From contig JARBJD010000101.1 of NCBI GenBank assembly GCA_033064195.1, forward strand, positions 124,001-188,000: 64,000 nt of DNA, in the 5' to 3' direction. The notes under the pieces were generated by a model. That model saw only the letters and a program-made list of their open reading frames with translations, was not told where the DNA came from and searched no databases. How positions within the stretch are numbered: position 1 is the stretch's first letter; each line of letters begins with the position of its first letter. Origin of the DNA: Blattamonas nauphoetae (taxonomy: Eukaryota; Preaxostyla; Oxymonadida). The position numbers and the translations under genes are program-made. Shown here piece after piece: positions 1,184-61,922 of this stretch.

Positions 1184-2371
1184 ATGTTGCAAGAAGATTT
1201 CCAGACCTCTTCGACTCAAATTGAGCAACTAGTTTCAAACGCAATTGATACTGAATTGGTTAACGCAGTGGCAAAGCGAATTGTGGATTCTATGACAACT
1301 CTTCTTCCACAACAAACAACACCCGAAATTCCAGAGGAGAATCCATTCTCTCAACCACCACTCGAAAAACACGATCAAAAGAATCAATCCGAAGATGTTA
1401 ATCCTCCTAAAATACAAAAACAGAAGAGAAGTAAGCCTGAACCAGCACATCATTCCCGTCGAAAGAAAACCAAATCCAATTGCAGTTCTGACTCGGAAGG
1501 TCAATTGCAGCAGCGTATTCGGGAAGATCATGGAAGATGGTCGGACTGCGACAGGAGTGCATCCTCATACTGCTCTGATAGTCCGACAACTGAATCGACT
1601 TGGTCAGAAACCGATTGGCAAAAGGAACGGAGTCGAAGAGAACCGAAGCGACATAAAAGTAAATATCAAAGCAGACGGAGAAAAAGAAATGAGAAGAAAA
1701 AGCCAAACCACTCAGACGACTCGAGGCACTGGAAGGGTGACGGGATACGAACGCAGAACGACCGGAATCGGCAAGAAACATTAAAAAGAAGAATACAACG
1801 AGATATCAAACGACAGGAACCATCATTTGGTAGCGATTGGATGCGGTCCTTCATCCCAGCCCAGCAGCGGGACAACATGAAGGCATCCACATCACAAAAC
1901 CGAAAACTACTTGGGATTCCGACAGAAATAGCTCCCAATAGTTTGGATCTAGGCCCAACTCAGAGGACGCAAGATCAGATACTGATGATCGCCACCGATT
2001 CAACGCTTTCAGCAATCGGGGTGTTGGCGGAGACATATCAGAAAGTAATGGACAAAAGGCCAGTAGCTGACATCCTGTCATCAATCACGATGTCGATGAT
2101 CCTTTCCGCGGACGCGGCAGGCTGTATTCACAACGGTCGGTACGTCACACCAGTAAATGCTCGAAATGTAACAAATATAGTTGGACTTACTCAACCTGCA
2201 ACAGCTGCAAATGACCTGCTCACCCCACCATCGGGATCTCCTCAATCACCGACGCCAGTCCTCTCACACACAGGCCAGAACTCTTTCTCTGGCCACGGGG
2301 GGTTCAGCCTCCCCCCGAACCAACCAAAAGGCCGACAACCGTTTCAGCGCAAACCCAAGTGGGGACGGTAG
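1184..2371 (+). CDS. DIRS gag-like first frame
   Basis: A 395-residue frame that begins directly after the left terminal repeat. The middle (residues about 60-200) is very rich in Lys, Arg, Ser and Glu with many RRKK-type runs, as expected of a nucleic-acid-binding gag-like protein. The C-terminal half is more ordered and ends in a Pro/Ser/Gly-rich tail. No CCHC zinc knuckle is seen. It overlaps the start of the reverse-transcriptase frame by 13 bases. Assignment as gag-like rests on position and composition, not on a recognised domain. Confidence 0.6.
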   Translation: MLQEDFQTSSTQIEQLVSNAIDTELVNAVAKRIVDSMTTLLPQQTTPEIPEENPFSQPPLEKHDQKNQSEDVNPPKIQKQKRSKPEPAHHSRRKKTKSNCSSDSEGQLQQRIREDHGRWSDCDRSASSYCSDSPTTESTWSETDWQKERSRREPKRHKSKYQSRRRKRNEKKKPNHSDDSRHWKGDGIRTQNDRNRQETLKRRIQRDIKRQEPSFGSDWMRSFIPAQQRDNMKASTSQNRKLLGIPTEIAPNSLDLGPTQRTQDQILMIATDSTLSAIGVLAETYQKVMDKRPVADILSSITMSMILSADAAGCIHNGRYVTPVNARNVTNIVGLTQPATAANDLLTPPSGSPQSPTPVLSHTGQNSFSGHGGFSLPPNQPKGRQPFQRKPKWGR

Positions 2372-5300
2372 ACATGGAGGTGAAGACACCTTTCCGCCTC
2401 ATCAACTCGATTCAACTGTGGACGAAAATTGGGGGAAGAGAGAGAATCGAGGCGGGAGCAATGTGGCAGTGGAAGTCGGAGGAGTCGCCAAGGAGACTCA
2501 AATCAGTCTGTTGGGCTCCACAATTCCGTGGGAGCCAGGAGGAGGTCAGAGCATCCAAGGCACTGTTGGAGGAGGAACTGAGATGCGGGGTTGTCGTTCC
2601 AATTCAAGAAGCAGACGTCACACTCTCTCTGCACACCTTCCTGGTCCCGAAACCAGGGGGGAAGTGGAGAAAAGTTCTAAACGCAACCCTACTCAACGAA
2701 GAAGTGCGGACGGAACATTTCAAAATGGAGAATGTGGAGACAGCTGTCCAACTAATCCAGGGCGGAGAGTGGATGAGCAGTATAGATCTCACGAACGCTT
2801 ACCAACACGTCCTTGTCCCACAACACCTTCGCAGATATCTCTGTTTTCAATTCGACAGCAACTATTATCAGTATGTCGGCATGCCCTTCGGGCTTGCAAC
2901 TGCCCCTCGAACATTCACAAAAATAATGAAAATAGCGATCAGATGGCTGAGGATGGAACTCCAAATGCCAATCATTTTCTACTTGGACGACGTGTTACTC
3001 ATTGCCAAGAACAAATCAGAATCACAGACAAAGACAGAGCAGGCAGTGACAATGCTGAAGTCTCTAGGGTTCGAAATAGCCTTGAACAAGTGTCAGCTGT
3101 CACCAACTCAGGTGATCGAATTTCTTGGATGGAGGATCAACGCTCTCACTCAGACACTATCCATCACACCATCTCGTCAGTCGAAACTGTTGAATCTGTT
3201 ACAAATCATCAAAGCGAAGACTCTTTCGCGACAAATTATTCCTGTGCAGGAGCTGGCCACTCTGATTGGACATCTCAACTTTCTGCGGACATCAGTTCCA
3301 TCGACAAGCCTATACCTCAAACAGATGAACAAGATGAAGGACGAAGCGGTCAGGAAGGGAGGATGGAACTCTCATTTCCAGCTGAATCCAATGATTCTGG
3401 GAGAATTGACTCATTGGACATCAAAAGTCAAGGAGAATCTTCCAAGAGCATTCAAGATGAACACTCCACAGGCTTTCATTACTACAGACGCGAGCCCATC
3501 AGGGTGGGGCTGCCAGTTGACGATCAACGACAAGGAAACGTTGATCCACGCGTTCTGGACAGAAAAACAAAAGAGTCAAACATCGAATTGGAAGGAGACC
3601 GCAGCGATTCGCTTCGCATTCATTCGAGCAGAACCAATCTTGAAGGCAAATTACATTTCAACATTCGCAGTGAGGAGCGACAACACATCGGCAATCTCCA
3701 ATTTGAAAAGACAGAATGCGGGCGAGACGTTGTGCCAGATCACACGTCAGACTCTCCTGACAATCGAGAAATCCGGGTTGCAGATGGTGGACATCCAACA
3801 CATTCCTGGATGTCAGAACGTGACAGCAGATGCTCTCTCGCGCCTTCACCCTCAGGCGGAGTACAAGTTGACGAAGCAAGCTCTAGAAATCCTTCAAGAT
3901 CGATGGAACTTCGTTCCACAGACAGATCTATTCGCGAGCTACAAGAACAGAACATGCAGCAGATACTACTCGCTGTACGAGGAAACAGAAGCAGCTGGAA
4001 AAGATGCATTCGCCCAGTTGTGGTTAGGGATGATGAATCCTCTATTTCATCCTCCGATCTTGCTGATTCCTCGAGTACTGAAGAAACTCAAGAGCGAGAG
4101 AGTGATCAGGGGAGTCCTTATCACGCCAGATTGGGCGAATCAGAGTTGGACTTCGACTCTCAAGGAGATCGAGATGGACTCGATGATACTCGGTCCTTTT
4201 TCAACGATGACCGAGAACACCGACTCTTCCTTCGAAGCGAGCCTCCCTCCAGGGATGGTTCGCGCTTCTTTACTGGGAGAGAGAACGAGGTTGGATTGAT
4301 GTTCTTTCGAGAACTCTGTACAGTTGGAAGGATCGACACATCTGTGAGAACGATTGAAGAAAACAGATACAAGAACAAAGGCCCTTGGATGAGGGCGTGG
4401 AAGTTGTTCAAACTCTTCTGTGACGACCGTGGATATGGACCCAACTCTCTTGTACATAAATCGACAAATATCGAAGCAATACTGTGTGGATTCATGGCAG
4501 AACTCTCTCGTCAGTTCCCACCTCCCAACCAACTGCCACATAGTGCCATTGTCAAGGTTGTCGTATCGTTGGGATTGTTTCACCCCACTCTCCACAACTC
4601 ATCCTCACACCTCAACTCTTTTCGGAAACTCATTGCGCGTTCTCATCCCAGACAATCATCGAAGCGACGATACAAAGTGGCCTGGGACATTGATCTTCTT
4701 CTTCAATGGTCAATCCAAATAGACGAACGTGCACGATCAGATGTTGAACTGCAACAACTTCGAACATTCGCTCTCGTTCTCGCAACGACGATGTGTCGAC
4801 GACAGGAGATAGTCAACCTCTGCTGGAAGGAGGTTGACTTCTACGAGAAGACTGAGTTCCTTTCTGTCCCATATGCCACCGTATCCATCGTCTCAAAACA
4901 AAACCAAACAGAGCATGACATCCGTCTCGTTCGAGATGAAGGCAGCGGGACGTTCTCTCCGTATGTGGCACTCCAAACTCATCGATCAAACATGATGAAG
5001 TTCTGGAAGGAGAGGAACGAAGCAGTGAACTTCGCATCAACAAGAGTGTGGGTCGACCTCAAGAATGGGTCCCCACTCAAGATGACATCAATTGCACTCA
5101 TGCTGAAAGGTCTTCTAGTTGAGATTGGAGTTCCTCACAAGTTCGGACCTTATTCAATTAAGCATGCTGCCGTGAGTTTTCTGAGGAGAGTGGCGAATGT
5201 CTCTCTCGAAGCGGTGAATGCCCATGTCGGATGGTCAGCCAAGTCAACCACCGCGGACGACTACTACTCCGCTCCGGTCCTAATCGGTCGATCAGACTCC

Positions 5301-5456
5301 TCGCTCGCCAACTGCTGGTGGCAGCCTTTGAGGAAGCACGGCCGTTGTCAATGTAAAGGGGAGAAAGTGAGTAGAGTCGAACAAGATTTCTTCTTTTCTT
5401 ATTATCATTCTCACTTTCCACTTGATTTTAGTCCTTTTCAAATCTCAATCTGTTGA
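2181..5456 (+). CDS. DIRS tyrosine-recombinase frame (domain about 4290-5300)
   Basis: A 1091-residue open frame. Its first two thirds run opposite the gag and RT frames in another phase and look like low-complexity shadow sequence. Recognisable protein begins near 4290: an N-terminal helical core-binding part, then a catalytic part containing CRRQEIVNLCWKEVD, VWVDLKNG, FGPYSIKHAAVSFLRR and VNAHVGWSAKSTTADDYY. This is the pattern of DIRS/Crypton/phage-integrase recombinases, which integrate a circular DNA copy and make no long target duplication. How much of the upstream open frame is translated is unclear. Overlap of RT and recombinase frames is known in this family. Confidence 0.8.
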   Translation: MDLLNLQQLQMTCSPHHRDLLNHRRQSSHTQARTLSLATGGSASPRTNQKADNRFSANPSGDGRHGGEDTFPPHQLDSTVDENWGKRENRGGSNVAVEVGGVAKETQISLLGSTIPWEPGGGQSIQGTVGGGTEMRGCRSNSRSRRHTLSAHLPGPETRGEVEKSSKRNPTQRRSADGTFQNGECGDSCPTNPGRRVDEQYRSHERLPTRPCPTTPSQISLFSIRQQLLSVCRHALRACNCPSNIHKNNENSDQMAEDGTPNANHFLLGRRVTHCQEQIRITDKDRAGSDNAEVSRVRNSLEQVSAVTNSGDRISWMEDQRSHSDTIHHTISSVETVESVTNHQSEDSFATNYSCAGAGHSDWTSQLSADISSIDKPIPQTDEQDEGRSGQEGRMELSFPAESNDSGRIDSLDIKSQGESSKSIQDEHSTGFHYYRREPIRVGLPVDDQRQGNVDPRVLDRKTKESNIELEGDRSDSLRIHSSRTNLEGKLHFNIRSEERQHIGNLQFEKTECGRDVVPDHTSDSPDNREIRVADGGHPTHSWMSERDSRCSLAPSPSGGVQVDEASSRNPSRSMELRSTDRSIRELQEQNMQQILLAVRGNRSSWKRCIRPVVVRDDESSISSSDLADSSSTEETQERESDQGSPYHARLGESELDFDSQGDRDGLDDTRSFFNDDREHRLFLRSEPPSRDGSRFFTGRENEVGLMFFRELCTVGRIDTSVRTIEENRYKNKGPWMRAWKLFKLFCDDRGYGPNSLVHKSTNIEAILCGFMAELSRQFPPPNQLPHSAIVKVVVSLGLFHPTLHNSSSHLNSFRKLIARSHPRQSSKRRYKVAWDIDLLLQWSIQIDERARSDVELQQLRTFALVLATTMCRRQEIVNLCWKEVDFYEKTEFLSVPYATVSIVSKQNQTEHDIRLVRDEGSGTFSPYVALQTHRSNMMKFWKERNEAVNFASTRVWVDLKNGSPLKMTSIALMLKGLLVEIGVPHKFGPYSIKHAAVSFLRRVANVSLEAVNAHVGWSAKSTTADDYYSAPVLIGRSDSSLANCWWQPLRKHGRCQCKGEKVSRVEQDFFFSYYHSHFPLDFSPFQISIC
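2359..4299 (+). CDS. DIRS reverse transcriptase-RNase H
   Basis: A 646-residue frame. Reverse-transcriptase motifs appear in order: SSIDLTNAYQHV near residue 140, MPFGLATAPRTF near 175, the catalytic YLDD box in FYLDDVLLIA near 210, and FLGWRI near 255. The RNase H part follows with TTDASPSGWG, WKETAAIRFAF, RSDNTSAIS and the closing TADALSR. This order and the spacing match DIRS/Ty3-related elements. It supplies the copying enzyme for the element and lies in a different frame from the longer recombinase-bearing frame, which overlaps all of it. Confidence 0.9.
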   Translation: MGTVDMEVKTPFRLINSIQLWTKIGGRERIEAGAMWQWKSEESPRRLKSVCWAPQFRGSQEEVRASKALLEEELRCGVVVPIQEADVTLSLHTFLVPKPGGKWRKVLNATLLNEEVRTEHFKMENVETAVQLIQGGEWMSSIDLTNAYQHVLVPQHLRRYLCFQFDSNYYQYVGMPFGLATAPRTFTKIMKIAIRWLRMELQMPIIFYLDDVLLIAKNKSESQTKTEQAVTMLKSLGFEIALNKCQLSPTQVIEFLGWRINALTQTLSITPSRQSKLLNLLQIIKAKTLSRQIIPVQELATLIGHLNFLRTSVPSTSLYLKQMNKMKDEAVRKGGWNSHFQLNPMILGELTHWTSKVKENLPRAFKMNTPQAFITTDASPSGWGCQLTINDKETLIHAFWTEKQKSQTSNWKETAAIRFAFIRAEPILKANYISTFAVRSDNTSAISNLKRQNAGETLCQITRQTLLTIEKSGLQMVDIQHIPGCQNVTADALSRLHPQAEYKLTKQALEILQDRWNFVPQTDLFASYKNRTCSRYYSLYEETEAAGKDAFAQLWLGMMNPLFHPPILLIPRVLKKLKSERVIRGVLITPDWANQSWTSTLKEIEMDSMILGPFSTMTENTDSSFEASLPPGMVRASLLGERTRLD

Positions 5457-13879: not shown

Positions 13880-14941
13880 CTACAAATTGAAAGCCGAGCT
13901 CATTCCGAACAAATTCATAATTTCGAATGAATATTCCCTCACATGGTCTCCATACTTCGTTGAGTTTTCTTGAAGCAGGGTTTGTTCGAGATGATTTCTG
14001 AACCCTTCCTGTTCCAGTGTCCGCAGCAATATTCTGTCTCTGCCCACAGTTTCCGCTCCATTGGTCCTCCATTTGGCAATATTGTGGGAGATGTGCAGCA
14101 AAAGGATTTGGTGAACATATTCGTCTTCCGCTTTCGTGAAAAGTGACTGGAAGACTATTGGGATGGGAGAGGACGTAATGAAATCTAGTGTTGGTTGGTG
14201 GAAAGCACTAACTTCAAAGAAAGAGAACACTGATCGCATAATCATCCCGTATTCGTCTCCCCAAAACACGAGACGATAATGGTGACTGATCTGGACGAGA
14301 GATGGGACGATTGGGGCCAACACTTCATGCAGCATCAAATCTCGGATTGATTGAGGGTCAGTGTTGGTATCGGCGGAGAGAGATCGAACAGAGTCGGGTG
14401 AGGCGAGCCAGATGCCATTTTTGAGAACGTTGAGAATGATGTATAGGACGGTCTGATTCGCCATCACATAAAGGTTTTGCAGATTCGGGCTTGTAAGGAT
14501 TCCGGGAACGAGTTTGGAGGAGACAAGGGCCAGTTTGTTTGAGGAGGAACATGTCTGGAGGATTCGAGTCATGAAGACGAGTGTAGGATTGAATATCAAT
14601 TCATGGGACATTGAGAGGAGGACAGTCATCGAATCCACAAAGGCTGCAGCGGGATTTGTGGAACCTTGTCCAATGGCCTCCAAGAAATCATCGACGTTCA
14701 ATTTGCTTCCGAGATCCCAGATGAGCGAAGATGCTTTCAGAAGAAGATCATCATTCCAGTTGTACCCATTTCTGACCATTGAAACAAGAGATAGGAGGAC
14801 TGGTGACAGAGAATCAGACGTGTGTGGTCCATCCCGAGTCCAATTCAGGAATGGAGAGTCTTCTGGATAAAACAAATGAAAATGAAGAGAAAAAGTGGAT
14901 ACCGTTCGATGAGGCCTTTCTGAAAGTGTGATGTGCTCCAT
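13880..14941 (-). CDS. ARM/HEAT-like family protein, subfamily 1, copy 3
   Basis: 353 residues on the minus strand, diverged from copies 1 and 2 but colinear: PFLNWTRDG, LVSMVRNGYNWND, FVDSMTVLLSMSHE, SSKLVPGILTSP, HEVLAPIVPSLVQIS, SAFHQPTLDFITSSPIPIVFQSLF. QVLAP-like HEVLAP also links it to subfamily 2. It is all-helical with no active site, so a scaffold role is only inferred. The 5' end was copied immediately upstream in a recent local duplication, so two potential starts and promoters exist (14941 and 15194). The start at 14941 gives the uninterrupted protein. Confidence 0.78.
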   Translation of the reverse strand: MEHITLSERPHRTVSTFSLHFHLFYPEDSPFLNWTRDGPHTSDSLSPVLLSLVSMVRNGYNWNDDLLLKASSLIWDLGSKLNVDDFLEAIGQGSTNPAAAFVDSMTVLLSMSHELIFNPTLVFMTRILQTCSSSNKLALVSSKLVPGILTSPNLQNLYVMANQTVLYIILNVLKNGIWLASPDSVRSLSADTNTDPQSIRDLMLHEVLAPIVPSLVQISHHYRLVFWGDEYGMIMRSVFSFFEVSAFHQPTLDFITSSPIPIVFQSLFTKAEDEYVHQILLLHISHNIAKWRTNGAETVGRDRILLRTLEQEGFRNHLEQTLLQENSTKYGDHVREYSFEIMNLFGMSSAFNL

Positions 14942-15212
14942 GGACGATTGTTTTCATGGGTCTTCCAACCCAGATGAGCGAAGATGCTTTCAGAAGAAGA
15001 TCATCATTCCAGTTGTACCCATTTCTGACCATTGAAACAAGAGATAGGAGGACTGGTGACAGAGAATCAGACGTGTGTGGTCCATCCCGAGTCCAATTCA
15101 GGAATGGAGAGTCTTCTGGATAAAACAAATGAAAATGAAGAGAAAAAGTGGATACCGTTCGATGAGGCCTTTCTGAAAGTGTGATGTGCTCCATGGACGA
15201 TTGTCTTCACGG
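14716..15212 (-). repeat. Tandem duplication of the 5' end of ARM-like copy 3 (253-bp step)
   Basis: About 244 bases at 14716-14959 recur at 14969-15212, offset 253 throughout and almost identical. The unit covers the start codon, the first 60 or so codons and some 5' flank. The outer copy reads MEHITLSERPHRTVS... for 126 residues and then runs out of frame at the junction. Near-identity implies a recent event. Confidence 0.9.
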
Positions 15213-22479: not shown

Positions 22480-23390
22480 AAAATAAACTTAATACATTGA
22501 CTACACGATACTCTTTGAGGAAATCTTGAAGAAGTGGGTGATTCTAAATGAAAAGTTACAAAAGACTATGGTGCGTCTCAAAAAAAAAATTTTTGTAGAA
22601 TTAGCTGTCAGAGGTTTTCAGGACAGAAAAGTGCTAAATTTTGGAGATTTTGTTTTGATCGCGTTCGAGAGAGCCCTATTCTGATTGGGGCTTTTTTTCA
22701 CATTTATTTCCCCGAAACGTGCCAGAAAATCAACCGATGGTGTAAAACGATATAAAAGAACGGAAATGTGAGAAAAAAGCGAATCAAAAGCACGAATCAT
22801 TCAAAAAGTCTTGAAAAACATGGATTGACTTCCTCGCGTCAGAGAGGCAATATCTTCATAAAGGAATCCGAAAACGTCCATATGGTATTTTTGAGGCGAA
22901 TTTGTGAATGGATATCATTTTGAGGGTTACAATAGAAGAGGGAGGAAGATCGGAATTCACAAGTCAACTGTTTGAGGGGAAGAACGGGATCACCAGATCT
23001 GAATGAGAAAGTTGAAGGAAAAGAGTTGGAAAACCTCAAAATTGCAATCAATCAATGAGATGTCAAGTTTCGTTGTTGGATCGAAGATGATGGAAACAAA
23101 GACTTGGAAAGCGAAGATGAGAATATATATCCTGTTCAAGCGATGGTTTTCCGCTTCAAAGTTTGTGTTAAAACGAGATACTTGAACATGTTTGGAGGTA
23201 TAGACAAGTCTGGGTGAAAAATGTCGACTGAATGCAGAACTCAGATACAAAAGAATGTATGAAGAGTCAGAAGGACAAAAAACACCTTCATCATGTCGAG
23301 GGGAGGAGAATATGAGCGCTCTGAAAATTGCAGAGAGTTTCTGCACGTCTGGCAGAAGAAAATACGCGGGTAACAATTCATTTAGAATCA
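22480..23390. other. Intergenic between serpin and RRM-SH3 gene
   Basis: AT-rich interval between two divergent genes. Open frames on the minus strand (for example 22990-23484) overlap the start of the next gene and show no domain. Nothing further is supported; it should contain both promoters. Confidence 0.4.
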
Positions 23391-24554
23391 CCCAAGTCGA
23401 TGTCACCATGTTTGTTATCTGGCCCAAATCATGTTGCCCATCGACCCGTTTTATCGGTCCTCTCCTTTGATCCAATCCCCCCATCTCCTCCTGCCACTCA
23501 CGAATCCTTCCGCATCGTCTTGCTCACCAGTGTGCCCTTTTCCACCATCACTCAGAGACTCTCGAAAGACCCTTCAGTAAGTCAGGTGACAATATGCCGT
23601 CCAAAGAAGAAACTGAGTCCGATGGAGTTGAGAATCAACACACTCCCAGAGGGATGCACAGAAGATCATCTCCGAGCTGTGATTTCTCCTCACACATCTT
23701 GCACGATCACCATCAAACCACCGACCTCTCCTTCCGTCCAATCATCAAGTGCTATTCTCATTTATCCGACTGAGGAAGCAGCAATCGCAGCATTCAGAGC
23801 AAGTTCGACGTGGATGGTTGAAAACGAACCAATCAAGGCTTTTTTTAAATTTCAAGGGAAGCGTGACAAGCATGACGGTCGGAAACACAGAAAGGTTCCA
23901 GAGGAACAGAAAGAGGAGAAACAAGGGGGGAGTTCACCACCATCCCCGTTCAGCTGCGGTTCCATCCCTGCCAAGGCTCTCTCTCCTCCAAGTCCTCCAC
24001 CTCTCCAACCGTTCCGAGTCATATTCTCCTTCGACGCGACTGGCTATCCAGGGGCAATGGGAGTTCAGGAAGGAGAAGAGGTGCTGGTGTCGGAGGAGAT
24101 GGCGGATGGATGGAGTGTTGTGTGTTGGCCGGATGGGACAGAGCGAGGAATCGTCCCGTCTTCATACATCGAACGATTGAACAAGCTCACCAACCCTCCG
24201 ACAGGACAGGGACAGCCTCCCCCACCACATCCTGCGATGGAGACAGCACACGGTGGGATGGAGACGGAAGGAGAGGCTCTGACTCCACAAGTCCAGCAAA
24301 CCGTGTCACAGTCAAACACTCCCCACCACAACCCCTTGCTTCCAACTCCAAACCCACAGTCAACACCGAACATCCGGCTGCATCAAGTGTCCATCGTCAC
24401 GCGGAAATGGAGGATGAGACAGACACTGCGAGCTGTCGACAATTATTCTGCTCCGACTGAACAACCGAACTGTTTGTCGCTTCGAGCTGGTCAGATAGTA
24501 ACACTGGTGGAGTTTGGCGATGAGTGGTGTCGTGTTCGAGATTATGTGGCAAAT

Positions 24555-26323
24555 GGGGTTGACTAAAAACAATCCACCGATCTATCTAAAAACAATCCAA
24601 TTCGATCAATCCCATCGAACTGCGACATTACGGATAAAACCTTTAACAATCGTTTTCATTTCACATTTTCATTGTATTCAGGAACATATTAGCAAAATGT
24701 GACCAAGTCAGGTGGGAATCGCGGCCAAGTCAACAGTCACTTCCGTGTCGATCACAACCTCTCCTTTTTCGCTTCCTTCTTGAACGACAAGTTCGATGAT
24801 GGACTGGCCAACGAAGTTGTCGAGATACAAGGGGTGTTGGCGGATTTGGGCAGCGGTGTAACGCTGGGGATGGGTGGGAGGGAGGGAACGAAAAAAGAAG
24901 GTGAGGAGAGGAGATCGGAAGGATATTTTGGAAAAGAGAGAAATAAAATGAGAAAAATGAAGTCTTTCTTCTCACAAAGGCATAAAACACTCAACTCACA
25001 CCTTTGTTGGATCAACCTCAAGAATCTTTGAAATGAGATTCCGATAGTCAGCTGACAGTGTCGATGGAGGACGGTATCAGGCGTGGATGACCTTTTGATG
25101 AAAGGGCGGCGCGTTCCGGTCCTCGAAGGGAGGAAGCCGCACACGAGAGAGAACAGAGTAACGCCACAGCTCCAGATGTCTATATAGCGGTCATTGTATC
25201 TCTGAAGAGATGGAGGAGGAGGGAAGAGACAATATGATTCGCAGAAACACGAATGAGAAGGAAAGAATCGTCCCAAAAGATGAGATATGATTGTCGACAA
25301 AAGAAATCGGTAGGATCAATTTCACACCTTTCCTTCGATCATTTCCAACGCCACATAACGTGGTCAATCACAGGCCGTCTTCAGAAGGCTTCCTAGCTTC
25401 ATTCTGTTCGAAAGGGCAAAATTGATGATCTTCAGGTTTCGGTGTCCATCGAGCATCAAGATCTTGGGTTTGAGACCACGATGGATGACTCTGAACTGTG
25501 AACGGGAGACAAAGAAGGAGGGGGGATAGAGGAGAGAGATGATGGAGAGATGATTGAATATGAGATGAGTAAGAGACCTAAAGAAGCATGAAAGACTAGC
25601 TAGGGCATCATAAAGATGCGCCATCCACAAAAACATATCCTCAAACCTGATTACAGAAGTCCAGTCCTTTGATCAACAGGTGGAAGAATGGGTATCCTTC
25701 TTCATCCTTCTTTCCACGTCTGCGATGTCAATGATTCGTTTCTTATCCACAATTTTGGCTGTAACCTATCACCGTCATGTCAATACATGGACGGAAATAA
25801 ATCAGAAGGTGACAGAACGCGAGGAAGGCATAATTTCTCTCCCATGATTGAGTGTGTTGCTGCAGAGAGAAAGGGAACAGAAAATCAATCATGCACAATA
25901 CAATCAGATGTAAAAACAGAAGAAATGAGGATAAAATAGTCAATTTGTGATAGAAGAAGAAAAGCGAGACTCAGGAGAGAGTACGAGAGAAATTGGTCTT
26001 CGTATCCACAGACCTGGAACAAAAACTAATTGAGCAGGAAGACAACCACGATTCGCGGAGAAAAAAGGACAGGATTCACCGGTTTCGTCGAAATTGACAT
26101 GTGAATTTCGATCAATCCATAAAAGTATCCGATCAACTCAGTGATGTCCACTTGAACTCAAATGAAAAGATCTTTCTTCTTTGTTGCTTTCTGACAATGT
26201 CTTCTTCCGTTTCCACTGAAATTTCTGAAAAACATAACCTTTATCCTCAATCTCACAATTCGATGGGATTGATCGAAATGGATTGTTTTTAGATAGATCG
26301 GTGGATTGTTTTTAGTCAACCCC
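24555..26323. mobile_element. Pack-type (MULE-like) DNA transposon carrying a kinase gene
   Basis: 1769 bp. The first 44 bases, starting GGGGTTGACTAAAAACAATC, are the exact reverse complement of the last 44. Weaker matching continues to roughly 90 bases. The 9-bp target duplication GTGGCAAAT flanks it at 24546-24554 and 26324-26332. Long terminal inverted repeats with a 9-bp duplication fit the Mutator/MULE group best; hAT would give 8. No transposase is encoded. Instead most of the interior is a decayed SNF1-like kinase gene on the minus strand, with introns. Perfect TIRs and an exact duplication mark a young insertion. Confidence 0.88.
24708..25940 (-). pseudogene. Captured SNF1/AMPK-like protein kinase, decayed
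   Basis: Minus-strand exons align with a SNF1-type kinase domain. AKIVDKKRIIDIADVERR is the lysine-bearing N-lobe. About 50-60 residues are missing, then EEGYPFFHLLIKGLDFC and FRVIHRGLKPKILMLDG stand where HRDLKPEN is expected. KIINFALSNRM stands for DFGLSNRM; LLKTACD is followed by a stop and then PRYVALEMIEGK. DIWSCGVTLFSLVCGFLP and ISKILEVDP follow, and YTAAQIRQHPLYLDNF closes it near 24780. Catalytic Asp and the DFG Asp are replaced. There are at least two internal stops and a one-base frame shift after GFLP. GT...AG introns are still recognisable, so capture was at the DNA level. It is not a functional kinase. Confidence 0.82.
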
Positions 26324-26741
26324 GTGGCAAATCAGGATGGCTTTGTTCCCACTCGCTGTCTGGACTCATCAGTTCCTGCCTCGATTCGTTCTCCATATCA
26401 ACAACAACGGAATTCGTCTCCGATCCTACCTCTCCCTCATCATCCTCAATCGATCCTCCGGAACGATCTCAATCGAGCAACCAACGCCACGTCGCTGACA
26501 CCACCTGCCCAACCAGTTCAGCTGATTGAAATGATCCACAATCACCCAGCAGCTGTCCCTCACTCTTCGCCAACACACGAGCACGACATTTTCCGCAGAT
26601 GTGCCATCACAGGCAACGTGATTGTGAAGTGTGCCCATCTGAGGAACGAGCCGGGTGTGTTCTACGAATGCGACAGACTGATCGACGTTGTGACAGGGAC
26701 TGGGTTGTCACCACACTCCTTCCTGCCTGTGTCTCTGGGGG

Positions 26742-28987
26742 TTGGCCTGTTAAGCTGTGTCCAGTCGAGGTGGCAATGTCCAGTCCAATGTCCAGTCTCC
26801 TATTTAGGAGCCGAGGGAGTTCATAAAACCGGGCAATGGGTGAAATCCAAGTCATTGCAACAAAATGACTCGAAACGACAAGGGAAGGTGTTCTGTGGGC
26901 AGATTAGAGATATGTCAGCAGATTGAGGTCAATTGTGTCCGGAGAACTGAATTATCGGATGGAAATGGGATGATCATTCCAAACCACATCCTTTTCTCCT
27001 CGAATTATCAATTCTACAAACATATTCTTGCAGCAATGATCTCAAAGATGGAATAATTGATATGGCGAGGGTGGATATCAGAACCTGGCTGGTAAAAATG
27101 ACACAAGGCAAAACAGTGTGATTAGTGACGAATTAAGTGAAAAGAAGACAAAAGATACGGCAGCCGACCTTCAGCTTGTTGTGATTCTTCTGAATTTCCT
27201 TCGACGATTGGCTCAGTCTATTTTAGGGCTGGTTGAGATCTTACAAACATCAACAGCGCGTCTATGTTCGTTCTTCCTCGCATCCCCTTCCTTGTTTGCT
27301 TTTCATTCACCGTCACTCCCTGTTCAGATCGAAGCGAGCGTCCAAGAATCTTTGATTCCCCTCCTTTCCGATTTTCGCAAGTGTGATCATCAGGGCCATG
27401 CACAAGTAGAAATACGCCGAGTTCGAAGAGACCAGAACACAAATTCAGTCCAGGGTGTCTGTGTATGACCAAAAAAGAGTAGGTGAGACCGTTAACAAAT
27501 GTGATCATGATTTAGAGGAAGGCCTTGATGAAAGCGATTGTGAAGAATACCCGGTTGAAGAAGCTGTGTTCAACGACGTTGACTTCGTTGGAGCATTGTC
27601 GTGTGGGGGGAAATGTTGAATTCTGGAGGTTAAGGAGAAAAAGAGAAGAAGGATCAATGTGGAGAATGTGAAAGATTATGAAGAACGGAGATATCTCTTG
27701 AGAGGACAATGAAGATGAGATGAAATTTCTGGGAATTCATTCTGACAAACCTTGTATCGATGATACATTCTTCTCTTCCATTGTTTTCGCAAAGTATTTC
27801 ATTGTCCTGAACTTTCGGTTCTTCTTTCTTCTCGACTTGTTTTGTTGATTCCTTATTTTCTTCACCGATTGATTCGGCCATCGTTTGATCAGTTAGAGTT
27901 GCAACAAGTGCAACAGTGTGTTCTTGTTCAATCTTGTTCTGGCTGGGTTCTGGAGACTTCACTTCCTTTGGAATCACAACTGTCTTCGAATCTTTCTTCT
28001 CATCATCTGATTCCATATTCCTAGCTACCATCTCCTCTGATTCTTGCCTCTTCGCCTCGGCCTGTTTTGCTATCTGCTCAAATCTCCCCTTAACTCCCGA
28101 TCTATATGTCGAATGTGAAGATATGAATGAGGAGGGTCAAAGATGATGAAAAAATGTCAAAAAAATGAATAAGCAAGAGATGCAAACCGATGGCAACAGA
28201 TCTCCCATCCTAGTGTATATTGGGGAACAATATGCCCGTCGTCTTGGAGGTTCCCTTTGAAAATACTCTGAGTCCATTTTCTACCAATTCGATGACAGTT
28301 GTTCATTTCTTCTCAGAGGAGAAGAAGACTGAAATTGCGGTTGTGCAGCTTTCTCGCTTGTGGATGAATGAGCACCCTGTTCCTGCAAGAGATGGAGAGA
28401 AAAAGTCAAGGAAGTGGCTAGAAATTGAAAATAAGGAGAGAAAACACGATCAACGGCGACTCAAACTGTTCTGAGTTTGGACACATCCAGGGGAAGCAAA
28501 ATGCAGAGATGAAGGCACTACCTCGCTCAAACAAAGTGATGAGGTCTAAGACTAATCAAAAAAGTGAGAGATGGGTGGTAATATCACACCAACATCGAAA
28601 TGGAGAAGCAACTGTGACCCTATATAGATGTGGATTGGACGTCCAGGACTGGATGTCCAATCGGACAGTCCAATTTTGCCGACTCTTTGAAAACTTCAAA
28701 AACGGTATGCACTAATTGAGAAGACATCAGAACAAAAGTATCAGCGAAATGTCCAATGACATCCAATGACGTCCAATGGTGGGTGGATCAAGCAACTCGT
28801 CACTAGAAGAAGAGTATCATCGGATTCTCACCATTTCGCTGATTTTCAAGAGACTATTCTCATTTTCAAGTGAAAGGAAACAAATATATGGAATGAGAGT
28901 AAAATGAACAGGATCAAAATTGAATTTCCAATCGAAGTCAATTGTCCAGTCCAACGCTGGCACCGTCCAATCCAATTAACATGCCAA
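26742..28987 (-). mobile_element. TTGGC-ended DNA transposon, copy A, with captured gene
   Basis: 2246 bp with short imperfect terminal inverted repeats: TTGGCCTGTTAA at one end and TTGGCATGTTAA at the other. An exact 8-bp target duplication TCTGGGGG lies at 26734-26741 and 28988-28995. Clusters of GTCCA/TCCAA motifs near both ends look like subterminal transposase-binding sites. Eight-base duplication and subterminal clusters suggest the hAT group, although the ends are not the usual CAG. No transposase is recognised. The interior carries the same intron-bearing gene as copy B, in opposite orientation in the window. It interrupts the RRM-SH3-SH3 gene near its 3' end. Confidence 0.85.
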
Positions 28988-33898: not shown

Positions 33899-34403
33899 TA
33901 ATCGAGCGAGTTTGTGCGAGAGAACCGGTCTGAGAGGGGGGATATTGGAGAATCACAAACTTCACTTTGCCTTGCATCCACCGATGATTTCTTTTGAAAA
34001 TCGATTCGGAGGAAATTGTGTGTTTTCCCATAAACTTTTGATCAAACGCATCTTTCACGATCTATCAGGCAAATGTGTTGAACATAGGGAGAAAAGAAAG
34101 AGAAAAGGATACTATATGTTAAACGAACTAGAGATAGTCTAAATTGTGTACATTTGAGTCGACAATCTCCATTTTTGTTGTTGTGGTCTTGATCAAGGAT
34201 CGCGACCAAAAATGATTTTCACAAACATATAGAGTTGAAAAATGATGATGATATGCATAAAAATGAGAAGATGAAAGGAATAATGTCATCAAAGAGAGAA
34301 ATTCAGTGTTTGATGGAAAATGGTACTTTCGAAGAAGTTTGGATCCCGTGTTGGTCTCGAGCATGCTTTGTGGAGCGAAATGAGTGGAGAACAGTGTTTC
34401 TAG

Positions 34404-34535
34404 TCATACCCTCCAGAGTTCCAAAACACCCTACAGGGTTCCATTCATTACCTACAGGCTTCCTCTTCACACCCTACAGGGTTCCGATTACCTACAGGGT
34501 TCATTTTACCTACAGGGGTAATACATGCCAATACT
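34404..34535. repeat. CCTACAGGGTTCC minisatellite
   Basis: Imperfect units built from ACCCTACAGGGTTCC and ATTACCTACAGG repeat about seven times. Related sequence lies inverted at 32672-32724. It is translated only because a long open frame upstream of the protease happens to run through it (PTGF, YRVP). Confidence 0.7.
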
Positions 34536-34585
34536 CGTTTGGTGACACCCTCCGGAATCCTCCTGAAGATGCTGGTGTTCCTAAA

Positions 34586-36640
34586 ATGGATCTTGTTGCC
34601 AGTCTTGAAGCTCTTGACCTGGAAGAGATGAATTCGATGTTTAAATTCTACAGTGCTATCCACAAAATCGTTGATTCTGCCAGAGATGCTCATCTCCAAT
34701 TCATTGCACCTTGTGAAACAGTTTTCCTGCAGTGCTTCCCGTATGACCTCTCGATTGAAACAACGAACCCTCCCATCTTGGTACTCCAGGCATCGAATCT
34801 GGACATGAGTCTTTCCGAAGACTCAAACAAGAAACTCGGATTTGATTTGATTGGAGCAAAAGTCCACAATCTGTCACTAAATACAGAATTTGACCCAACA
34901 AAAACACCCTTCGACGTGCTCTCAGATTGGGCAGAGGAGAATGTTGTTGCCGCAAAAAGAAAAACGAATCGATTCAACCGAGCCATTTTCGAAGACTTTG
35001 TCTATCGAACAGCTCTGAAACCTCAAACAGCAAAAGTCAAAATGATGGTTACTCTGACAAATGGGGAACAGAAAACAGTCACTGTTCCGTTTGGTGTTTA
35101 TATAAACACTGAAGAGCTCATTACCAGACTCGAGGATTTCTGCCCGCTACAAATCATGAACAATAAGTCCAAAACTCCAAATTCGACTCTAAAATTGGAG
35201 GAAATTCATAAGAAGAACGAAGAAATCATCAAATATGTATTATCCCCTGCCCGACAACTCATTTCATCGACGAACAACTCGATCCCATCCCTACCATCCA
35301 ACTCCGATTATTCCACGCCCATCATAACGTCTGAATATGGCATTACATCTGCAATCATCCCCACTGAGAAGATCGGCTATTTACACATCGGCTCGTTTAG
35401 TGAACAAAAAAACGGAACTGCAAAAGCGTTTGTCCAGTCTCTGAAAGAAATTCTGTCCAAAAAATGCGAGAAACTCATTCTTGACCTGCGTGGGAATGGA
35501 GGTGGTGACGTGATGTTTACTGTTGAAATGATGGAGCTCCTCTGGCCGAATCGAATTCCACACACTTTCCAGGTTGATCACCCAGTCACTCCGTGGCATG
35601 ATATGTACGAAGATTTGTTTGTTGCCCTTTCAAACCCTTTTCTCGATCCCACAACTCTCAAACCAACAAATATGAAGACGGATCGTGTGGTGAAAAACTT
35701 CACACACATCAACGGAACAGAATACCAACGAACATATTCCAAACGATTTATTTTCGGAGGGGGAGATGAAACGATTGGATCGACACTTCGGAAGTACTGG
35801 AACAGAGCTCTCCTCAAAAGAAAGACGCCTCTCTTCGCTCCCGAAAACATTGTCATGCTCACCGACGGACGGTGTGGATCAGCTTGCGGAATGTTCATCA
35901 AAACAGCCCGCGCACATCGATTGGGTCGTGTGGCGTACATGGGTGGATACCCAATCGAAACAGAGCCGACAGACATCGACATTGGGGAGTTCAGTGGAGG
36001 ATCTGTATTCACGGCATCGGAAATACACCCAATTGCCGCAGTGTTCGGTGAAGAATCTCCGATTGCTCCGTTTGTGCGAATGACGACTGATATGACATTC
36101 ACACACATCAGCGTGTATTCCAACGAGGAAGGGAAGGAAAACGAGATGTGGGAGTTCTCGAGGGTGACACCGTCGGTTGTGAAGAGGCTGTACAAGAACG
36201 CCCCCGCATCAAGCGAAGCTGACATGAAAGAACTCGTGGAACTTGTGAAGGCCGAATTCGGGAAATGCGATGTTGGGATGTTCAAAGAAAGCTCGACCTG
36301 CAACAAGCTGAACAAGAACAACAAACTCTCCGCCCATCCATGCTCGCCAGACACGTCGACATTCGACACATCAACCTGTGTCGCTGCTGGGTGTGTTGCT
36401 CGCCACTGGTCAGTCGGCGGGGAATGTGTTGCTTCGCCTCTCCTTTCTCGGAAGGAGGTCGAACTCCGGTCGTGGTGGGAAAGATTTGGATGGATCATCA
36501 TTGTTGTCGTTGTCGCACTCGTTCTCGTTGTAGTCATCCTGATTGCGGCATGTGTTTGTTCCAGTCGACGTCGAAATAAAGACAAGGATGGTCTGGACAT
36601 CGATCAGCAACCAACAGATTACGATATGATGGCTGTCTAA
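34586..36640 (+). CDS. Membrane-anchored S41-type (C-terminal processing) protease homologue
   Basis: The open frame begins at 34235, but its first 100 residues cross a minisatellite, so the first plausible internal ATG (MDLVASLEALDLEEM, 34586) is used. The real first exon with a signal peptide was not found. S41 landmarks: KIGYLHIGSFSEQ, then LILDLRGNGGGDV (the conserved LRxNxGG strand), then VMLTDGRCGSACGMF, in which the Ser of CGSAC is the likely nucleophile. A C-terminal helix (WIIIVVVVALVLVVVILIAA) and a basic tail RRRNKDKDG make it a type I membrane protein. This fits a cell-surface serine protease near beta-helix surface proteins that share the same anchor style. The substrate is unknown. 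Confidence 0.75.
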   Translation: MDLVASLEALDLEEMNSMFKFYSAIHKIVDSARDAHLQFIAPCETVFLQCFPYDLSIETTNPPILVLQASNLDMSLSEDSNKKLGFDLIGAKVHNLSLNTEFDPTKTPFDVLSDWAEENVVAAKRKTNRFNRAIFEDFVYRTALKPQTAKVKMMVTLTNGEQKTVTVPFGVYINTEELITRLEDFCPLQIMNNKSKTPNSTLKLEEIHKKNEEIIKYVLSPARQLISSTNNSIPSLPSNSDYSTPIITSEYGITSAIIPTEKIGYLHIGSFSEQKNGTAKAFVQSLKEILSKKCEKLILDLRGNGGGDVMFTVEMMELLWPNRIPHTFQVDHPVTPWHDMYEDLFVALSNPFLDPTTLKPTNMKTDRVVKNFTHINGTEYQRTYSKRFIFGGGDETIGSTLRKYWNRALLKRKTPLFAPENIVMLTDGRCGSACGMFIKTARAHRLGRVAYMGGYPIETEPTDIDIGEFSGGSVFTASEIHPIAAVFGEESPIAPFVRMTTDMTFTHISVYSNEEGKENEMWEFSRVTPSVVKRLYKNAPASSEADMKELVELVKAEFGKCDVGMFKESSTCNKLNKNNKLSAHPCSPDTSTFDTSTCVAAGCVARHWSVGGECVASPLLSRKEVELRSWWERFGWIIIVVVVALVLVVVILIAACVCSSRRRNKDKDGLDIDQQPTDYDMMAV

Positions 36641-59678: not shown

Positions 59679-61922
59679 TTGGCATGTTAATTGGATTGGA
59701 CGGTGCCAGCGTTGGACTGGACAATTGACTTCGGTTGGATATTCAATTTTCATCCTGTTCATTTTACTCTCATTCCATATATTTGTTTCCTTTCACTTGA
59801 AAATGAGAAGTCTGTTGAAAATCAGCGAAATGGTGAGAATCCGATGATACTCTTCTTCAAGTGACGAGTTGCTTGATCCACCCACCATTGGACGTCATTG
59901 GATGTCATTGGACATTTCGCTGATACTTTTGTTCTGATGTCTTCTCAATTAGTGCATACCGTTTTTGAAGTTTTCAAAGAGTCGGCAAAATTGGACTGTC
60001 CGATTGGACATCCAGTCCTGGACGTCCAATCGACATCTAGAAAGGGTCACAGTTGCTTCTCCATTTCGATGTTGGTGTGATATTACCACCCATCTCTCAC
60101 TTTTTGATTAGTCTTAGACCTCATCACTTTGTTTGAGCGAGGTAGTGCCTTCATCTCTGCATTTTGCTGCCCCTGGATGTGACCAAACTCAGAACAGTTT
60201 GAGTCGCCGTTGATAGTGTTTTCTCTCTTTATTTTCAATTTCTAGCCACTTCCTTCACTTCTTCTCTCCATCTCTTGCAGGAACAGGGTGCTCATTCATC
60301 CACAAGCGAAAAGTCAACACGATCGAACTGTCGGACGTCTTCTCCTCTGAGAAGAAATGAACAACTGTCATCGAATTGGTAGAAAATGGACTCAGAGTAT
60401 TTTCAAAGGGAACCTCCAAGACGACGGGCATATTGTTCCCCAATATGCACTAGGATGGGAGATCTGTTGCCATCGGTTTGCATCTCTTGCTTATTCATTT
60501 TTTTGACATTTTTTCATCGTATTGGACCCTCCTCATTCATCTCTTCACATTCGACATATAGATCGGGAGTTAAGGGGAGATTTGAGCAGATCGCGAAACA
60601 GGCCGAGGCGAAGAGGCAAGAATCGGAGGAGATGGTAGCTAGGAATATGGAATCAGATGATGAGAAGAAAGATTCGAAGACAGTTGTGATTCCAAAGGAA
60701 GTGAAGTCTCCAGAACCCAGCCAGAACAAGATTGAACAAGAACACACTGTTGCACTTGTTGTAACTCTAACTGATCAAACGATGGCCGAATCAATCGGTG
60801 AAGAAAAGAAGGAATCAACAAAACAAGTCGAGAAGAAAGAAGAACCGAAAGTTCAGGACAATGAAATACTTTGCGAAAACAATGGAAGAGAAGAATTTAT
60901 CATCGATACAAGGTTTGTCAGAATGAATTCCCAGAAATTTCATCTCATCTTCATTGTCCTCTCAAGAGATATCTCCGTTCTTCATAATCTTTCACATTCT
61001 CCACATTGATCCTTCTTCTCTTTTTCTCCTTAACCTCCAGAATTCAACATTTCCCCCCACACGACAATGCTCCAACGAAGTCAACGTCGTTGAACACAGC
61101 TTCTTCAACCGGGTATTCTTCACAATCGCTTTCCTCAAGATCTTCCTCTAAATCATGATCACACTTGTTAACGGTCTCACCTACTCTTTTTTTGGTCATA
61201 CACAGACACCCTGGACTGAATTTGTGTTCTGATCTCTTCGAACTCGGCGTATTTCTACTTGTGCATGGCCCTGATGATCACACTTGCGAAAATCGGAAAG
61301 GAGGGGAATCAAAGATTCTTGGACGCTCGCTTCGATCTGAACAGGGAGTGACGGTGAATGAAAAGCAAACAAGGAAGGGGATGCGAGGAAGAACGAACAT
61401 AGACGCGCTGTTGATGTTTGTAAGATCTCAACCAGCCCTAAAATAGACTGAGCCAATCGTCGAAGGAAATTCAGAAGAATCACAACAAGCTGAAGGTCGG
61501 CTGCCGTATATTTTGTCTTCTTTTCACTTAATTCGTCACTAATCACACTTTTTTACCTTGTGTCATTTTTACCAGCCAGGTTCTGATATCCACCCTCGCC
61601 ATATCAATTATTCCATCTTTGAGATCATTGCTGCAAGAATATGTTTGTTGAATTGATAATTCGAGGAGAAAAGGATGTGGTTTGGAATGATCATCCCATT
61701 TCCATCCGATAATTCAGTTCTCCGGACACAATTGACCTCAATCTGCTGAAATATCTCTAATCTGCCCACAGAACACCTTCCCTTGTCGTTTCGAGTCATT
61801 TTGTTGCAATGACTTGGATTTCACCCATTGCCCGGTTTTATGAACTCCCTCGGCTCCCAAATAGGAGACTGGACATTGGACTGGACATTGCCACCTCGAC
61901 TGGACACAGCTTAACAGGCCAA
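59679..61922 (+). mobile_element. TTGGC-ended DNA transposon, copy B, with captured gene
   Basis: 2244 bp, nearly identical to copy A but inverted in the window. Ends TTGGCATGTTAA and (inverted)TTGGCCTGTTAA; exact 8-bp target duplication GTCTAGAG at 59671-59678 and 61923-61930. GTCCA motifs cluster at 59700-60030 and 61870-61920. The interior holds one host-like gene with introns and no recognisable transposase. It landed in DIRS-like fossil sequence between 59565 and 62115. Two near-identical copies with clean duplications mean recent activity. Confidence 0.87.
60386..61446 (+). CDS. Non-transposase gene inside transposon copy B
   Basis: Spliced by eye: MDSEYFQREPPRRRAYCSP..., an intron ending TCGACATATAG near 60562, then SGVKGRFEQIAKQAEAKRQESEEMV, a Lys/Glu-rich segment and ENNGREEFIIDT. 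An intron (GTTTGTCAG...CTCCAG) leads to NSTFPPTRQCSNEVNVVEHSFFNRVF. A further part (HRHPGLNLCSDLFELGVFLLVHGPDDHTCENRKGGE...SQPALK) follows a third intron. The first region is coiled-coil-like; no DDE catalytic domain is seen. Copy A carries the same gene at 28474-27218 on the minus strand. It may be captured host sequence or an accessory protein of the element. Confidence 0.5.

Follow-up and report, generated by a model that had tools for sequence, protein, structure and literature searches.

The window (the whole stretch of DNA analysed, 64,000 nucleotides, C4:124001-188000) comes from Blattamonas nauphoetae, a gut-dwelling protist whose relatives include species without mitochondria, and all genome sequence searched was that of one assembly (88.31 Mb, 837 contigs). 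At positions 24555-26323 the window contains a transposon of 1769 bp with terminal inverted repeats (TIRs) that lies within the frame of an SH3-domain protein (Table 1). Its inverted ends begin with GGGGTTGACTAAAAACAATCC and form a perfect repeat, as an earlier note on this DNA had claimed, which extends over 45 bp rather than the 44 bp given there and is part of 84-bp arms that are 93% identical. An exact 9-bp target-site duplication (TSD), GTGGCAAAT, flanks the element (24546-24554 and 26324-26332), and no transposase family was matched by the 10 ORFs of the window element and nine sister loci (E up to 0.1); the duplication and the missing transposase of that note therefore both held. Removal by script of the element together with one TSD gave a continuous open frame (...EFGDEWCRVRDYVAN/QDGFVPTRC..., the slash marking the junction). 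The frame upstream of the insertion encodes a clear SH3 domain (SH3_2, E 1e-9) and the stretch adjoining the insertion gave a weak SH3_4 match (E 0.0098), and we read the element as splitting a putative second SH3 domain in the assembled haplotype. The insertion site was not found in empty form elsewhere in the genome assembly.

Other repeats were observed in the window. Another DNA transposon, ~2.24 kb long, occurs twice in opposite orientation (26742-28987 and 59679-61922, 97.6% alike), with ends TTGGC(C/A)TGTTAA and 8-bp duplications TCTGGGGG and GTCTAGAG; its open frame (27654-28136; 60383-61009) is not transposase-like by eye, and its first copy lies about 410 bp past the kinase-bearing element, within the open frame that comes after it. 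Overlapping frames at 1184-5456 match a reverse transcriptase (PF00078) and a tyrosine recombinase (PF00589, just below the cut-off), and we take this retroelement to be of the DIRS-like type. Pairs of related open frames with 70-83% similarity and no known function are located at 203-1089/6706-7587, 42339-43510/48109-49286 and 47944-48858/52365-53281, and the protein encoded at 13880-14953 resembles those of the 203-1089/6706-7587 pair, by eye only.

Table 1. Features of the kinase-bearing element and its insertion site (window positions; the exon letters B-H are our own)
Feature	Positions	Strand	Remark
SH3-domain open frame broken by element	23325..24554	+	stop-to-stop open frame, not a gene model; resumes at 26333 (VAN/QDGFVPTRC)
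Left TSD GTGGCAAAT	24546..24554		exact copy
Left TIR arm	24555..24638	+	perfect over 45 bp, 93% over 84 bp
Left terminal and subterminal transposon sequence	24555..24742		common to kinase-bearing sister elements
Captured kinase exon H, truncated	24743..24863	-	donor alignment
Captured intron 7, GTGTGA...CCCAG	24864..25001	-	in donor L069; missing from paralog L070
Captured kinase exon G	25002..25201	-	with stop and 1-bp frame shift
Captured intron 6, GTGTGA...TTCAG	25202..25327	-	donor alignment
Captured kinase exon F	25328..25495	-	HRD to HRG, DFG to NFA, stop
Captured intron 5, GTTTGA...CACAG	25496..25646	-	donor alignment
Captured kinase exon E, 3' part	25647..25689	-	donor alignment
Deletion junction	25690..25711	-	~405 bp of donor absent, remainder of exon C through the greater part of exon E
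Captured kinase exon C, 5' part	25712..25765	-	donor alignment
Captured intron 2	25766..25833	-	5' GT lost, 3' AG kept
Captured kinase exon B	25834..25859	-	donor alignment
Captured intron 1, 3' part	25860..25936	-	donor alignment
Right subterminal and terminal transposon sequence	25937..26323		common to kinase-bearing sister elements
Right TIR arm	26240..26323	-	pairs with left arm
Right TSD GTGGCAAAT	26324..26332		exact copy

The minus strand of the element reads as two blocks of a decayed SNF1-like kinase gene, 25712-25936 and 24743-25688, joined by a 23-bp link. These blocks align at 84.9% over 225 columns and 81.9% over 974 columns, respectively, with a donor gene in the same genome (C34:168148-169095, L069; listed publicly as 'putative serine/threonine protein kinase [Blattamonas nauphoetae]'), and they run through donor introns 1 (part), 2, 5, 6 and 7. 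The public protein is identical to the kinase frame of the donor (100% over 92% of 453 aa). The protein model of the donor is intact (678 aa) and contains Pkinase (E 6e-79) and KA1 domains, a SNF1/AMPK/MARK-type architecture; since this domain set is also found in listed proteins of Monocercomonoides and Streblomastix, the kinase was considered a host gene. The approximately 405 bp of donor sequence lost between the blocks correspond to residues about 65-123 of 678 (hand count), in agreement with the N-lobe deletion described previously, and the minus-strand kinase itself was confirmed, the expression "most of" a kinase being generous for about 204 of 678 residues and ~70% of the Pfam kinase domain, both counted by hand. 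Where the 5' end of an intron is retained, the GT and AG borders claimed for the introns are intact in three of four cases and GT is lost in the remaining one.

The window copy is about equally close to the donor in exons (85.7% identity, 489 sites) and introns (85.4%, 260 sites), and genomic DNA was therefore captured; in the larger group of kinase copies defined below, identity to the donor is 82-86% in exons and lower, 77-79%, in introns. Capture via mRNA was ruled out because introns are present in the cargo and match those of the donor. The paralog on contig C2 (L070) was also ruled out as the donor, since its exons are only 68-72% identical to those of the elements and it lacks intron 7, which is present in the donor and in the elements. 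No TIR-like ends were found in the 4.6 kb read at the donor.

The ends of the window element define a genome-wide family. Of 72 candidates for an 86-bp terminal query, 40 were scored matches, and the end pattern, with up to 3 mismatches, gave 77 matches in its window version (3 for the reversed control) and 97 in a commoner version (0 for the reversed control), the two sets overlapping. Because these values are far above those of the reversed controls, the ends are not a chance match. We delimited 34 elements; L043 was dropped as a repetition of L034, and L021, L024 and L029-L031 were dropped because they have an end and no kinase cargo. Perfect duplications of 8-9 bp (scored with 8-10 bp and allowing a one-base shift) flank 30 of the 34, these being plain 9-bp (23 elements), shifted 9-bp (3) or 8-bp (4) repeats, and a perfect one is absent from L012 (3 mismatches), L017 (1), L048 (2) and L009 (4), the last of which is the nearest sister of the window element and has no recognisable duplication. 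Helitrons have neither TIRs nor a target-site duplication, whereas the window element has both.

When 150 bp at either end were ignored, the interiors of the 34 elements were sorted by us into nine groups, i.e. kinase (11 elements), S41-like (9), L018-20 (3), L039/44/45 (3), L034/47 (2), L037/40 (2), L050/51 (2), L053 (1) and L054 (1), and shorter stretches (~50-490 bp at 72-87%), mostly near the ends, are common to several of them. Related ends thus enclose different cargo, with a sequence-checked donor for three of the nine groups; the donor searches covered the groups other than L018-20, L037/40 and L050/51. Nested repeats or insertions are present inside L015, L023, L032, L036, L045, L048, L049, L052, L053 and L054, and some of these repeats occur at dozens of places. 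The 3.2-kb interior of L045 and the greater part of the 5.5-kb interior of L052 are 95-100% identical to repeats elsewhere and were therefore taken as nested repeats. As for the insertion sites, an open frame of at least 150 codons within 600 bp on both sides was found at 28 of the 34 empty sites; in a control within 300 bp, 19 of 34 sites were open versus 546 of 1020 random flank points, and exon targeting as a general feature was withdrawn because random flank points are about equally often open. One family element (L051, 607-2178) was observed within a RING-finger-like frame (CGHTFHKECLDD/WLVSQSTCPYC, by eye).

Besides the kinase, other host-gene pieces were traced to their sources. The L053 element carries a piece of a USP-type deubiquitinase that is 88% identical over 979 aligned columns to a donor on C579, an open frame of 815 aa with a UCH match (E 1.8e-24). 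In the S41-peptidase-like group, L049 aligns with C127:112700-113700 in two parts, 559 bp at 90% and 246 bp at 82%, and the other eight elements lack ~440 bp of this donor at the same place. The donor stretch of 1001 bp is open throughout (333 aa), gave a Peptidase_S41 match slightly below the curated cut-off (22.7 versus 24 bits), and is 27% identical (E 1e-36) to the S41 gene of the window (34193-36640). A candidate donor for L047 (C168:320120-320647, 83% over 528 bp) is a search match, not sequence-checked. A TIR-bounded unit with its TSD (in the window element), no transposase of its own (in the window element and the sister loci read) and host-gene cargo with a surviving source gene (kinase, USP and S41-like) are thus all present, and the elements constitute a Pack-TYPE family in an oxymonad. 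The main claim of the earlier note, the capture of a gene with its introns, was borne out by the intact donor without TIR-like ends, by the equal match of exons and introns and by the sisters with other cargo. Of the comparison it proposed with the SNF1-like kinases of the genome, the part made here, with the C34 gene and the C2 paralog, pointed to the former through exon identity and intron 7, and the TIR search it proposed yielded sisters with other cargo and no autonomous MULE; a family in which every copy has the same cargo and no intact donor exists, the outcome it named as contrary, was not what we found.

A search with the kinase cargo of one sister gave 24 matches at 20 places, which comprise 17 elements with much cargo, a 39-bp remnant (C338), the donor on C34 and the paralog on C2. 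Ten of the 17 elements were delimited at both ends, and the other seven showed one recognised end with the patterns used. One kinase-bearing copy, L011 on contig C381, probably corresponds to the hypothetical protein BLNAU_23069 (P0006), whose contig has an identical length (50657 bases) and whose sequence is kinase-like, and under this name transposon cargo probably sits in the predicted proteome. The kinase alignment left out L015 and L023 (insertions) and L017 (too little cargo), and L012, L027 and L028 were aligned and not included in the tree. In this tree (14 sequences, rooted with L070), the element copies form a single clade (ultrafast bootstrap 96) that contains two subgroups, the window copy with the C351 copy (100) and the remaining element copies (100). 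Because the window and C351 copies agree at 98-99% along most of the element and lie in 1-kb flanks that do not match each other, this element appears to have moved recently.

The seven kinase-bearing loci with one recognised end each might suggest a host pseudogene lying between two solo ends rather than one mobile unit. Such a reading is extremely improbable, as it is refuted by the exact duplication around the window element, by the same kinase cargo in 17 elements and by the 99%-identical sister that sits in non-matching flanks. If the kinase DNA is thus part of the mobile unit, it might be a working transposon gene maintained by selection, in agreement with its presence in 17 copies and with the annotated protein to which one of them probably corresponds. 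However, the exons of the window copy, when read in the donor frame, contain two stops and one frame shift, and HRD is HRG and DFG is NFA, the loss of both aspartates having been noted before; the two sisters read also have stops, and sister elements exist without kinase cargo. The donor and the paralog L070 differ mostly at third codon positions (0.099/0.050/0.553 differences per site at positions 1/2/3), and hence the host paralogs are under strong constraint. Differences between the window copy and the sister E_L014, by contrast, are even at the three codon positions (0.178/0.193/0.201) and in introns (0.204). In the larger kinase group the codon-position differences are about even in four of five comparisons (for example E_L010-E_L014, 0.048/0.062/0.055 with 0.044 in the intron), the E_L014-E_L016 pair being uneven (4, 0 and 8 changes). 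The donor and the window copy show an intermediate pattern (0.128/0.110/0.191, intron 0.146), since constraint is expected on one side only. As differences are even at codon positions and in introns, the window copy and its sister would be decaying without selection, and the kinase copies lack a clear sign of it. The selected gene was rejected as very improbable, largely refuted by the codon-position and intron divergence and by the stops.

For an unselected cargo, it might still be asked whether the same kinase gene was captured at least twice, independently for the window/C351 pair and for the larger group. The cargo boundaries of both groups differ, the window copy covering L069 blocks 1942-2909 and 3314-3538 and L010, of the larger group, blocks 1355-1418 and 1559-2796, and the parsimony sites for the three four-taxon groupings (8, 7 and 5) barely favour one capture. 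We consider two captures rather unlikely, because the element copies form one clade and the subterminal regions on both sides are common to both kinase groups. The differing donor ranges fit a larger capture after which the two groups lost different internal parts, and a single capture is favoured by the tree model, not firmly because the parsimony counts are close.

The identity of the mobilising superfamily was approached through the transposases of the genome. Mutator-like (PF10551) and Merlin-like (PF12762, DDE_Tnp_IS1595) matches were found at 100 and 94 places, respectively, and none of them (0/100 and 0/94) lies inside the GGGGTTGACT-type ends of delimited elements, in a comparison made by eye with end lists that are possibly incomplete; no autonomous partner with such ends was found among these places. 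The nearest transposase is a PF10551 place ~1.7 kb outside an element on C334. No TIR with a 9-bp TSD was found in ten 3.3-kb Mutator-like loci, whose right ends are probably outside. When the longest frames of 10 Mutator-like loci were compared with 46 regions, three matches of 16-23 aa were obtained, of which two fall in a nested repeat of L036 and L048 and one in the L048 flank. A 742-bp insert of L015 shows 73% similarity to DNA next to the Mutator-like frame L055. The left boundaries of two Mutator-like groups start with GGGTGACTC and GGGTATTTC, somewhat like GGGGTTGAC, a one-sided comparison made with Mutator-like ends alone, those of other families being partly read.

The duplications lie in the 8-10-bp range of Pack-MULEs and are also compatible with Merlin (IS1595-like), which might have mobilised the same Pack-TYPE event instead of Mutator. 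In Merlin elements the ends start with 5'-GG, the TIRs measure 24-462 bp and the duplications are of 8 or 9 bp (PMC8101967), and their transposase is abundant in this genome. However, the Merlin families of Monocercomonoides, at least seven, have 8-bp duplications (PMC8101967), whereas 23 of the 34 elements analysed here show plain 9-bp ones and 7 of 34 show 8-bp or one-base-shifted 9-bp ones, a mixture like the 8- or 9-bp duplications of the Mutator-like element Muta1 (PMC5225508), and the Mutator-like left boundaries point in the same direction. Mobilisation by Merlin therefore seems unlikely to us and by Mutator fairly probable; membership in Mutator is likely, and unproven because an autonomous partner was not found and both types of transposase are common. 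The term Pack-MULE, used in the earlier note, accordingly exceeds the data, and the Pack-type capture that it implied stands.

Taken together, these results make it highly probable that the window element is a Pack-TYPE transposon with captured kinase DNA, most likely mobilised in trans by a Mutator-like transposase, and that its copies decayed unselected. Between two subterminal regions, an ancestor element would have taken up genomic SNF1-like kinase DNA that spanned intron 1 to exon H as a minimum. As a non-autonomous cut-and-paste DNA transposon served in trans by a Mutator-like transposase, the hybrid element would then have transposed and reached 17 copies or more, its lineages would have lost different internal parts while the kinase decayed without selection, and a close sister of the C351 copy would have inserted into the SH3-domain frame of the window. 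Gap repair is a possible route for the capture. Tandem insertion with re-mobilisation (PMC8903248) might be another.

With pieces of three or more unrelated host genes lying behind related ends, it is conceivable, if somewhat doubtful, that the Pack-TYPE system acts as a general gene-shuffling engine in the oxymonad, with cargo such as BLNAU_23069 as raw material for new genes. In Monocercomonoides exilis many unclassified repeats coincide in part with protein tyrosine kinase genes, and the authors of that study interpreted this as expanded gene families (PMC8767320); if the gene-shuffling idea is true, these repeats could be the same thing in a relative. The 'hypothetical proteins' and kinase counts of oxymonads may include transposon cargo.

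The Pack-MULEs of plants are reportedly the subject of Jiang et al. (2004). Like the elements described here, they are non-autonomous, mostly 1-2 kb long, and have TIRs and varied host-gene fragments behind related ends (PMC6431247, PMC6446971); the differences are the oxymonad host and the lack, in our searches, of an autonomous Mutator element with these ends. Unlike in plant Pack-MULEs, three cargo pieces are of ordinary GC content (0.448, 0.442 and 0.475), the published value for the B. nauphoetae genome being 44.96% (0.45) (PMC10703272). The definition of Pack-TYPE elements as Class II non-autonomous elements with coding-gene DNA between TIRs fits the family, although the same source describes them as found in plants (PMC8903248). 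Outside plants, hAT and Tc1/Mariner elements of Pyrenophora tritici-repentis also multiply non-transposon genes between TIRs, but the longer hAT form there still has a complete transposase and the copies are almost identical (PMC3538342), whereas here transposase is absent from the elements read, the cargo is diverse and the donors are in the same genome. The TvMULEs of Trichomonas vaginalis are Mutator-like elements in a metamonad as well, but they encode transposases and capture is not mentioned in the main text of their report (PMC2725143). Non-autonomous families of Ectocarpus carry genes without transposase homology and are likened by their authors to Pack-MULEs, but they are giant, their accessory genes are mostly of unknown function, and no donor host genes are seen in the account given of them (PMC12477816). 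The earlier note had supposed that a case in a protist of this kind would be new, and in agreement with this no Pack-type capture in a metamonad was found in full-text searches of open papers; the kind of element is known and its taxonomic setting new, and the donor evidence is unusually complete. How Pack-type capture happens is still open (PMC13317346, PMC5225508). Such capture has been documented mainly in plants, and the oxymonad provides a second, very distant system for this question, with a compact genome in which the donor, the captured copy and the deletion derivatives are all readable.
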